Source of the DNA: Lamprocystis purpurea DSM 4197
GTDB lineage: Bacteria > Pseudomonadota > Gammaproteobacteria > Chromatiales > Chromatiaceae
DNA length: 51,349 nt
Direction: 5' to 3'
Assembly: GCF_000379525.1 (NCBI RefSeq)
Contig: NZ_KB902523.1
Location: 1-51,349, forward strand
A model generated the notes under the pieces. That model saw nothing but the letters and a program-made list of their open reading frames with translations, made no database searches and was not told the origin of the DNA. Below, one piece after another: positions 3,219 through 16,839 of the stretch. Made by a program: the position numbers and the translations under genes. The first letter of the stretch is position 1; every line of letters begins with the position of its first letter.

Positions 3219-3965
3219 TCACGCCTCCGGGCCCGCGGTGCGCGGCGCCTCCCCGAGCAGCCGCCAATCGCCCCCGGACCAATCGCCATTGAGAAGCGCG
3301 GCAAAGCCATCGGGCGGCGGCAACCCCTGACAGGCCAGCAGCGAGGGTGCGACCAGGTCGGACCCCTGGCTCCACCACAGGCTGTAGGCGAGGAACACCT
3401 GATTCATGGCCTGGTCCAGCAGGGTCAGGCAGGCCCCGTCGACCGGTCCGTCGGCCGTGCTCAGGTGCCAGGCATTGGGTCGTCCACGACCTGGCTCGGG
3501 AGGGCCGATCCTGCCATCCGCGCCGATGGGGTCACCCAGCGCCAGGACCTTGGCGTCGAAGTCATCCAACGAGAAGGGGTCATCGAGGACGGACAGGGCC
3601 AGCGCCTCCGCCCGCTCGAACCAGCCGGTGACCTGCAACAGCCGGCAGGGGTTGGTCCCGGTCGGCAGCGAACCAGCGAGGGTGAGTGGGAAGTAACGCC
3701 CCACCCGATCCACGCTCGGCATCAGGACCCCGGCCCAGGCCCCCTGCCCCGCCACGCCGGGACTAAGGACAAAGCGCCACAGTGGACTGGTGAGATAGTG
3801 CTCCAGCCACGCCTCGCCGAGACGGGTACGGCTGGCCGCCAGCGAGGCTTGCAGCCATTGGTCCCAGGGCTCGATCAGCGCGGTGGACAAGCGCCGGCCG
3901 ACGAAGTCACCCAGGTGCGGGAGCTTGCCGTAGAACCCGGTCCCGACCGGGTTTCCCGTGCTCAT
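3219..3965 (-). CDS. tagF: Type VI secretion-associated protein TagF (DUF2094)
   Basis: 248 residues. The start (TGFYGKLPHLGDFVGRRL) is the hallmark of TagF, together with the central WRFVLSPG and GVLMPSVDRVGRYFPLT stretches. TagF is a cytoplasmic post-translational repressor of T6SS firing known from P. aeruginosa and Agrobacterium; in some species it is fused to PppA, and here the two are adjacent and separate. Its ATG at 3965 overlaps the tssM stop by four bases, so translation is probably coupled. No odd features were noticed. Confidence 0.93.
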   Translation of the reverse strand: MSTGNPVGTGFYGKLPHLGDFVGRRLSTALIEPWDQWLQASLAASRTRLGEAWLEHYLTSPLWRFVLSPGVAGQGAWAGVLMPSVDRVGRYFPLTLAGSLPTGTNPCRLLQVTGWFERAEALALSVLDDPFSLDDFDAKVLALGDPIGADGRIGPPEPGRGRPNAWHLSTADGPVDGACLTLLDQAMNQVFLAYSLWWSQGSDLVAPSLLACQGLPPPDGFAALLNGDWSGGDWRLLGEAPRTAGPEA

Positions 3966-15140: not shown

Positions 15141-15289
15141 GAGGACTCCGTCGACGATCAAACAACGCAAGGCGCGGCATGATCGCACAGGCGGCCCCCG
15201 CGGACGATCAGAACCATTGCCAGGGTCCGCCCCGAACGCGGAGAATCAGCGGTTACGGCGCACGCGCCGCCATCACGGACCCCGCCGCC

Positions 15290-15865
15290 ATGTTCTTCCC
15301 GATCCCCGAACCCGTCCGCCGTCAGGCCAAGACGCCGCATGAGCTGGCCATGGTCAATCTGGTGCTGTTCAATCTGCTGATGCTGATCGCCTTGCTGGGC
15401 GGGAGTTTCGTGGAGTCGGATTCGTCCCTGGCGCCGTACAAGGTTCTGGGGGTGGCGGTGCCGCTGGGTATCTCGCTCGCCATCGCGGGCTACACCTGGG
15501 TGCGCGCCCGGCGTGCCGCGCGGGACGGCCCCTGGTTTCTGGCCGCTCACTGGCGGTTGGCCGGCGCGCGCTACCAAGTGCTGATGATCGCCTATCTGGT
15601 CGGTACCGGCCTGATCGGACTGGGCTGGCTGTTGGCTCAGGCCCAAAAATCACCCGGCATGCAGGACCTGATGTTCATCGCGCTGCAACGGGTGGCGATT
15701 GCACCCATGTTGATAACGCTGATGGTGCTCGTCATGTTGGAGTCCGGCGCCATCTATCAGGCCCAGCGCGGCGAAGTGCCGAACCGTCTCGCCGAGCGCT
15801 GCCCGCCGCCCGCGGACCTCGCGGGAGCGGACACGGAGTTTGCATCGGCGCCGCCTGCGGCCTGA
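15290..15865 (+). CDS. Hypothetical multi-pass inner-membrane protein
   Basis: 191 residues from the ATG at 15290 (MFFPIPEPVRRQ). The frame is open back to 15179, but the upstream 37 residues are polar and overlap the TerB-like leader. Four hydrophobic stretches are seen: MVNLVLFNLLMLIALLGG, VLGVAVPLGISLAIAGYT, VLMIAYLVGTGLIGLGWLL, and IAPMLITLMVLVMLES. Between segments two and three lies a basic loop (RARRAARDG). The C-terminus is Pro/Ala rich and cytoplasmic if the count is right. I do not recognise a family. It is followed after 89 bases by the cyclophilin gene on the same strand. Confidence 0.65.
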   Translation: MFFPIPEPVRRQAKTPHELAMVNLVLFNLLMLIALLGGSFVESDSSLAPYKVLGVAVPLGISLAIAGYTWVRARRAARDGPWFLAAHWRLAGARYQVLMIAYLVGTGLIGLGWLLAQAQKSPGMQDLMFIALQRVAIAPMLITLMVLVMLESGAIYQAQRGEVPNRLAERCPPPADLAGADTEFASAPPAA

Positions 15866-15954: not shown

Positions 15955-16533
15955 ATGAATCTGACACCCAATCTGCTTGTCGCCGCTGTCCTGTCCGTCG
16001 GCGCCCCGACCGCCATGGCCGCCAACCCGAAAGTCGCCCTGGATGTGACCATCGGCGGCGAGCCCGCCGGCACCATCACCATCGAGCTGTTCGCGGACGT
16101 GGTGCCGAAAACCGCGGAGAACTTCCGCGCCCTGTGCACCGGCGAGAAGGGCATGGGCAAGAGCGGCAAACCGCTGACCTATGCGGGCAGCACCTTCCAC
16201 CGCATCATTCCGGGCTTCATGATCCAGGGCGGCGACTTCACCCGCGGCAACGGCACCGGCGGCGAGTCCATCTACGGTGAGAAGTTCGAAGACGAAAACT
16301 TCAAGCTCAAGCACTTCGGCCCCGGCACCCTGTCCATGGCCAACGCCGGCCCGAACACCAACGGGTCGCAGTTCTTCATCACCGTGGCCGACACCTCCTG
16401 GCTGGACGGCAAGCATGTCGTCTTCGGCAAGGTGGTCGACGGCATGGATGTGCTGAAGAAGATGGAAGCCCAGGGCAGCCGTGCCGGAACCACGCAGTCC
16501 GAGGTCAAGCTGGCCGCCTGCAAGCAGGTCTAA
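15955..16533 (+). CDS. Secreted cyclophilin-type peptidyl-prolyl isomerase, eukaryote-like with divergent loop
   Basis: 192 residues. A signal peptide ends near Ala22-Ala23, so the enzyme should act in the periplasm on Xaa-Pro bonds. The mature part is closer in style to eukaryotic CypA than to bacterial PpiA/Ppi[21 protein letters not shown] (catalytic Arg83), [14 protein letters not shown] and [12 protein letters not shown] (Trp149, the residue linked to cyclosporin binding). It carries the seven-residue insertion GKSGKPL at about 68-74. Cys61, Glu104 and Cys189 fall exactly where plant divergent-loop cyclophilins have Cys40, Glu83 and Cys168 (Cys to Cys spacing 128 in both). It appears monocistronic, and a hairpin follows at 16554-16579. 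Confidence 0.93.
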
Positions 16534-16579: not shown

Positions 16580-16583
16580 TCGC

Positions 16584-16839
16584 GTTGTCGTTGTCGTAAT
16601 CGTTGTCGTAATCGGAGAAGCGATTCAATGTGGGCATGAGCGGCCCGCTGTCGATCGGGCGCTACTTCGCCGCCGTCTCCACGGCCGCCAAGCGTCTGAA
16701 AGGCTGCGCTTCGATCGCCACGCCCGAGACCAACGCATCGTTGTGCTGCTTGCGACGCTCGGACAGCGCAACGACGCGGTGCGCGAGAACCCTCGCCGGT
16801 ATCACAAATCCGATCACGACAACGACAACGACAACGACG
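16584..16839. repeat. Cassette bounded by inverted TCGTTG-type microrepeats, with a 47-codon frame inside
   Basis: Bases 16584-16614 are runs of GTTGTC/GTAATC units, and 16811-16839 hold the complementary CGACAA units, so the interval is bracketed by inverted simple-sequence arrays. On the minus strand a frame from GTG at 16805 to TAG at 16662 (47 residues) has GC-rich third positions and reads like a protein tail (…RLAAVETAAK). It may be the 3' remnant of a lost gene. Nothing else is visible between the cyclophilin and aceE. Confidence 0.35.

Follow-up and report, generated by a model that had tools for sequence, protein, structure and literature searches.

In the window, i.e., the whole stretch of 51,349 nucleotides of Lamprocystis purpurea DSM 4197 that was analysed, an open reading frame with an ATG start and 192 codons plus a stop is present on the forward strand at exactly 15955-16533, where the first-pass annotation had claimed a cyclophilin gene, and the encoded protein of 192 aa matches PF00160 with 173 bits (E 7.4e-51, cut-off 21.7). 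The same protein scores 71.7 bits against the PpiA model NF008151 (NCBIfam), which is below the cut-off of 308, and 60.9 against PpiB (NCBIfam), the cut-off of which is 297; its best solved-structure relatives are eukaryotic divergent-loop cyclophilins. The features of the gene are as follows, with the basis of each in brackets.

15955..16533, +, CypA-like (divergent-loop) cyclophilin precursor, 192 aa (ORF, PF00160, 4jjm alignment)
15955..16020, +, likely Sec signal peptide, residues 1-22 (sequence, heuristic)
16021..16530, +, mature cyclophilin domain, residues 23-192 (active-site comparison, AlphaFold2 model, Foldseek)
16135..16137, +, Cys61 codon, equivalent to Cys40 of CsCyp (alignment; Cys in 69/69 order homologues)
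16159..16179, +, divergent loop KSGKPLT, residues 69-75 (sequence against the consensus XXGKXLH)
16264..16266, +, Glu104 codon, equivalent to Glu83 of CsCyp (alignment)
16519..16521, +, Cys189 codon, equivalent to Cys168 of CsCyp (alignment; Cys in 69/69 order homologues)

The CypA active-site residues are present in the mature domain as R83, F88, M89, Q91, A129, N130, F141, W149, L150 and H154. Nine of these positions (R, F, M, Q, A, N, F, L and H) are invariant in all 69 copies from the order, and the tenth is Trp in 62 of them. Since the active site is of the CypA type, catalytic activity is to be expected, and the CypA-like residues predict that the enzyme would bind cyclosporin A.

As to the surroundings of the gene, a scan for promoters and terminators around it found none. 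Just downstream, at 16583-16838, lies a MITE-like element with 30-nt terminal inverted repeats that are 90% complementary, the arms being separated by 192 nt; this stretch has 103 matches, whole or in part, in the same genome, one of which is located about 0.8 kb beyond ppiB on contig C133. The upstream neighbour, a protein of about 200-230 aa, is similar in the window (15179-15865) and in Thiocystis (3298-3909 of the corresponding locus), where it is itself preceded by a rhodanese-like exported protein, as read from the sequence.

Probable export signal, redox triad and predicted fold

Residues 1-22 contain a hydrophobic stretch and an Ala-X-Ala motif. In all 8 members of the genus, however, the n-region (MNLTPNLL in this protein) is free of Lys and Arg, which counts against a signal peptide. 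The call of a signal peptide is a heuristic one, made by tests of hydrophobicity and of a loose Ala-X-Ala motif rather than by a trained predictor, and among the homologues of the order 68/69 pass the former and 68/69 the latter. Lys and Arg are absent from the first nine residues in 24 of the 69 order copies, the 8 genus copies included, a count that uses script-chosen starts, so that some of the 24 uncharged copies are poor start choices. The protein is likely to be exported to the periplasm via Sec. It is noted that the genome has DsbA-family and DsbB genes, with one DsbA-family/DsbB pair only 0.2 kb apart.

Residues 23-191 align without a gap with the chain of CsCyp in 4jjm (chain residues 5-173), so that Cys61, Glu104 and Cys189 correspond, with a single offset of 21, to Cys40, Glu83 and Cys168. 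The spacing match that had been claimed for the three residues is therefore borne out, and so, with the heuristic signal call, is the description of the protein as a eukaryote-like divergent-loop cyclophilin having the triad and a likely signal peptide. The loop reads KSGKPLT and not KSGKPLH, i.e., the final His of the divergent-loop consensus XXGKXLH, as it is given in the relevant passages of PMC7641896 and PMC4552658, is Thr75 here, and the sequence departs from that consensus; a His at the loop end occurs in 1 of the 28 long-loop copies of the order. From position 59 to 82 there are 24 residues, versus 17 in loop-less CypA-like sequences.

An AlphaFold2 model of residues 23-192, built with 62 aligned sequences, has a mean pLDDT of 91.8 and a pTM of 0.89. 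In Foldseek the model lies at 0.8 A rmsd from 4jjm with 72% identity, and the top matches, at 0.7-0.8 A, include Brugia malayi 4jcp, wheat 4e1q and CsCyp 4jjm. In the wheat protein TaCypA-1, the two cysteines are 5.5 A apart according to a figure legend of PMC4552658.

Distribution and the cyclophilin complement of the family

The genome (6.9 Mb, 211 contigs) contains two PF00160 genes, namely, this one and one of the cytosolic PpiB type. All eight genomes of the genus, its own included, have the gene with 90-100% identity, and chance is thus excluded. At E 1e-35 or better, 69 of the 195 order genomes searched give a match, all within its own family. With the gene being in 8/8 genus genomes and 69/195 order genomes, contamination is ruled out and the gene is not a recent arrival. 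In a draw of 369 genomes from the class, a match at 1e-40 was obtained for two, its own and one more; the protein of the latter (L270) has neither signal peptide nor loop, and a suspicion that its gene is broken (one TGA, one TAG) was dismissed, since the two stop codons precede the ATG and the protein reads intact. Among the best 80 loci of a scan with one genome per species, from which the number of relatives is a lower bound, the closest named relatives are Candidatus Thiodictyon intracellulare (89%), which keeps the gene in a genome of 3.0 Mb, and then Thiocystis violacea (72%), and further relatives are scattered over Planctomycetota, Verrucomicrobiota, Streptomyces, Bacteroidota and Myxococcota. 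In a draw from the phylum of one such planctomycete (that with protein L012), 5 of 149 genomes match. A cyclophilin of this type is hence not unique to this genome. In the library that was searched, none of the titles listed concerned an exported divergent-loop cyclophilin in these bacteria, which is no proof of absence, and no paper joined cyclophilin and Chromatiaceae. As a separate observation, a Neptunomonas MAG encodes an exported-looking cyclophilin that is placed, with weak support, near human CypB rather than CypA and is perhaps a second, separate eukaryote-like exported cyclophilin in Gammaproteobacteria.

To see which cyclophilins accompany the gene, PF00160 matches were counted in 77 genomes of the family, of which 72 have at least one match, with 148 matches in total, and the 79 stretches without the CypA-like gene were classed by their best score against this protein, a PpiA of the family and a PpiB of the family. 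All 24 genomes with the CypA-like protein have the cytosolic PpiB type and none has the PpiA type, whereas 47 of the 48 genomes without it have the PpiA type, and in 44 of these 48 two cyclophilins are in tandem. Two of the 47 PpiA-type assignments are doubtful, that of G085 due to an internal stop and that of G086 because the N-terminus has no signal-like features and a second piece lies at a contig edge. One genome, G087, has PpiB only, with neither PpiA nor the CypA-like protein, and one carrier of the CypA-like protein, G055, has a further weak PF00160 match (L206, E 1.1e-9) that stayed without a class. Note that the counts of PpiA and the CypA-like protein are not independent, because the replacement may be one event.

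Two side observations concern the same genomes. Five genomes of the family have no PF00160 match, two of which (G009 and G071) have an estimated completeness of 98-99%. Moreover, three genomes (G089, G075 and G067) have, besides the PpiA and PpiB types, a third cyclophilin (L265, L269 and L268, respectively) with a signal-like N-terminus and weak scores against all three query types.

The gene order around ppiB differs in the corresponding way. It is cysS-ppiB-lpxH in the genome studied here and cysS-ppiA-ppiB-lpxH in two PpiA-bearing genomes, where cysS, lpxH and also aceE were named from reading the protein sequences and not by a family search. When flanks of about 0.4 kb around ppiB were inspected in the 24 carriers of the CypA-like protein, the gene was seen to stand beside cysS in 12, beside lpxH in 15 and beside at least one of them in 21. 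From the mutual exclusion with PpiA together with the absence of ppiA from the cysS-ppiB-lpxH locus, it seems that the periplasmic cyclophilin was swapped in this lineage. Perhaps the swap happened once: in a PpiB tree of the 72 genomes, the bootstrap of which had not settled, the 24 are all contained in a single starred set, which comprises 30 rows, the tree needs 5 changes, and a single clade of the 24 is not rejected (p 0.14; 0.21 with G087). What would make this of general interest is that a conserved envelope folding factor was apparently exchanged for a CypA-like one, the old gene being gone from a conserved locus.

The cysteine pair and its possible roles

A long loop is found in 28 of the 69 order copies, together with Glu at position 104 in 26 and Asp in 2. 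The other 41 have a short loop, with position 104 being Lys in 27, Arg in 9, Gln in 2 and Met, Ala and Glu in one each, i.e., 40 of the 41 have no acidic residue there. Both Cys61 and Cys189 are present in 69/69, and no copy has any other cysteine in the mature protein; Cys52, Cys62 and Cys115 of human CypA correspond to Thr80, Ile90 and Thr143 here. The nearest planctomycete sequences have 4 and 5 cysteines, and human CypA has 4. The comparison gives no support to a triad working as one unit, as the first-pass annotation implied, since the loop and the acidic residue go together in this clade but the cysteine pair is present in every copy, including the majority that have neither of these. 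In the tree described below the loop state needs 4 changes within the Chromatiaceae clade (35 rows), and the short-loop rows as one clade are not rejected (p 0.23). Shortening of the loop appears the likelier direction, because in the tree as drawn the forms with a long loop branch off close to the base, although these branches have weak support.

The two-cysteine rule is to be read against other cyclophilins. Of the family's classical PpiA domains, 39/45 are free of cysteine and 6/45 contain one (G085 and G086 excluded), and two cysteines are present in 44/70 of the cytosolic PpiB domains. Of the eight loop-bearing, exported-looking planctomycete rows, three (L006, L012 and L014) have Ser in place of Cys189 while keeping the loop and Glu, two (L005 and L273) have just the cysteine pair, two (L011 and L031) have a third cysteine and one (L016) has seven; L008 and L270, both without a signal peptide, likewise contain these two cysteines and no others. 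As PpiB and these two proteins can have two cysteines, the number alone proves neither a disulfide nor export, and the argument for a disulfide rests on the fixed positions, the probable export and the absence of all other cysteines. Based on the last of these, in 69/69 order copies, the disulfide is likely to be structural and permanent; the fixation of the pair while the loop and the acidic residue are both absent in 40/69 suggests that it is independent of the loop lever; and a structural disulfide is also indicated by the fact that a protein which is probably exported contains these two cysteines and no more, in a genome that has DsbA/DsbB-family genes.

We consider it fairly probable (roughly 0.68) that the protein is the periplasmic cyclophilin-type prolyl isomerase of this purple sulfur bacterium, that it has replaced PpiA and that it has a structural Cys61-Cys189 disulfide. 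Based on this model, a gene for a divergent-loop cyclophilin of the CypA kind would have entered the ancestor of a part of the Chromatiaceae, gaining a signal peptide or already having one, and would have taken over from the native PpiA, which was lost from its place between cysS and ppiB. The precursor would be exported by Sec with the loss of residues 1-22, the disulfide would be introduced by the DsbA/DsbB system and would stay permanently as a structural element, and the mature enzyme, with its intact CypA active site, would isomerise prolyl bonds of envelope proteins. The plant-type lever would then represent inherited anatomy that in this clade is not kept as a unit. Of all this, the sequences themselves show the homology, the register of the triad, the pattern of presence and absence, the different gene order at the ppiB locus and the two-cysteine rule, whereas export, disulfide, activity, role and the direction of the transfer are inferred.

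A difficulty of this model is that oxidation inhibits the activity of CsCyp, as described in the passages on it in PMC7641896, and likewise, according to those of PMC10575979, that of PoxCYP18, a loop-less cyclophilin of the fungus Penicillium oxalicum with the same cysteine pair; a permanently oxidised enzyme would therefore be poorly active unless adapted. For a secreted Aspergillus cyclophilin, the relevant part of a review (PMC13162259) gives both options, i.e., that the disulfide may serve as a switch or may stabilise the protein under oxidative conditions, and the stabilising role is the one that we favour here.

The switch, which is rather unlikely in our estimation, would work as an exported one: the Cys61-Cys189 disulfide would move the loop off Glu104 and turn the enzyme off, and Dsb reductases or sulfide would turn it on again. 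The triad is indeed present together with Lys69 and Ser70, the equivalents of the loop residues that in TaCypA-1 contact Glu83 according to the passages on it in PMC4552658, and the long loop is kept, always with an acidic residue, in the 28 order copies noted above; moreover, when independent pairs were drawn at random on starred branches, the loop and the acidic residue agreed in 5/5 in most of the draws, but five pairs cannot reach p 0.05. The short loop of the other 41, of which 40 have no acidic residue and none lacks a cysteine, argues against such a lever, and with DsbA/DsbB genes present the off state would be the default. The main reason to keep the idea is that the loop is not required, PoxCYP18 being regulated via the same pair as far as the passages on it in PMC10575979 describe. 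A more specific version, that in sulfide-rich anoxic habitats the periplasm of purple sulfur bacteria is reducing enough for sulfide to open and for the Dsb proteins or oxygen to close the Cys61-Cys189 bond, we regard as improbable; if true, the replacement of a cysteine-poor PpiA by a two-cysteine CypA would give the envelope a foldase that responds to both sulfide and oxygen, and the complete allosteric lever would be retained in those lineages that have the loop. Metal binding by the two cysteines, in place of a disulfide, is very improbable: for C. elegans CYP-3 a Cys40-His54-Cys168 site has been proposed, and models of it exist for TaCypA-1 and AtCyp19-3, as stated in part of PMC4552658, but the required His is Thr75 here and is found in 1/28 long-loop copies, and the site was on that account not favoured.

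Whichever role the cysteine pair has, the clade can be used as a natural experiment on the redox triad of plants, because the loop and the glutamate covary within it while the cysteine pair is fixed and all other cysteines are absent. This can separate a structural disulfide from a switch, and long-loop and short-loop homologues of one clade allow a direct biochemical comparison.

Descent and comparison with known cyclophilins

In an 80-row tree, calculated with the loop and triad columns excluded and with five eukaryotic rows entered by hand, the 35 chosen Chromatiaceae rows form one clade (100/98). The rows nearest to it, with support of 82/86, which is not strong, are L271 and L272 from the planctomycete draw, which have the loop, Glu and both cysteines and in which no signal peptide is seen in the sequence. 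A phylogeny upheld the earlier claim that the protein is not an ordinary PpiA: grouping with the 8 chosen PpiA rows is rejected with an AU p of 6.8e-125, a value to which the long-branch warning applies. Grouping of the Chromatiaceae clade with the plant divergent-loop proteins is not rejected (p 0.42), nor is that with the nematode ones (p 0.43), while a single clade of all eukaryotic rows is rejected (p 0.001); the bacterial and eukaryotic CypA-like proteins are interleaved in this tree. Since a single clade of the 33 loop-bearing rows is also rejected (p 0.008), the divergent-loop class is a structural class and not a clade, and the loop does not mark one subtype, as had been supposed.

The donor may have been planctomycete-like or a eukaryote. 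That the gene was acquired straight from a eukaryote (or is a contaminant), rather than transferred from bacterium to bacterium, we regard as unlikely. The best solved-structure matches are eukaryotic, plant and nematode proteins are allowed as its relatives by the tree, and a sample of Pseudoblepharisma tenue is the source of one of the relatives, a ciliate endosymbiont. Against direct acquisition stand the presence throughout the genus and in the order genomes counted above, Thiocystis violacea included, the GC3 of 0.896 versus 0.854 in the next gene and the planctomycete origin of the nearest rows, though their support is only 82/86.

ScCypA of Streptomyces, reportedly described by Pahl in 1992, resembles eukaryotic cyclophilins and is an earlier case of a CypA-like protein in bacteria. 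Unlike the present protein, most Streptomyces rows here have no signal peptide, loop or cysteine pair; L007 has the loop, Glu and the cysteine pair with no evident signal peptide. ScCypA is also listed in a table of PMC7641896.

With the E. coli-type periplasmic PpiA (NF008151) the protein would share the likely signal peptide and the role of a periplasmic cyclophilin. It differs from it in the score of 71.7 against the cut-off of 308, in the rejected tree grouping and in its cysteines, the PpiA of the family having 0-1 in 45/45 scored. With PoxCYP18 it has in common an equivalent cysteine pair, which acts there without a divergent loop; however, PoxCYP18 is fungal and is inhibited by oxidation, and the passages on it in PMC10575979 make no mention of export. 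Closest are CsCyp (Citrus sinensis, 4JJM), TaCypA-1 (wheat, 4E1Q) and C. elegans CYP-3 (1DYW), with which it shares the fold (0.7-0.8 A, 69-72% identity), the 7-residue insertion relative to CypA, the equivalents of Cys40, Cys168 and Glu83 and the CypA active site. By contrast with these three, the present protein has a likely signal peptide, a Thr instead of His at the loop end and only two cysteines versus 4-6, and many of its sister copies have the cysteine pair without the loop and Glu.
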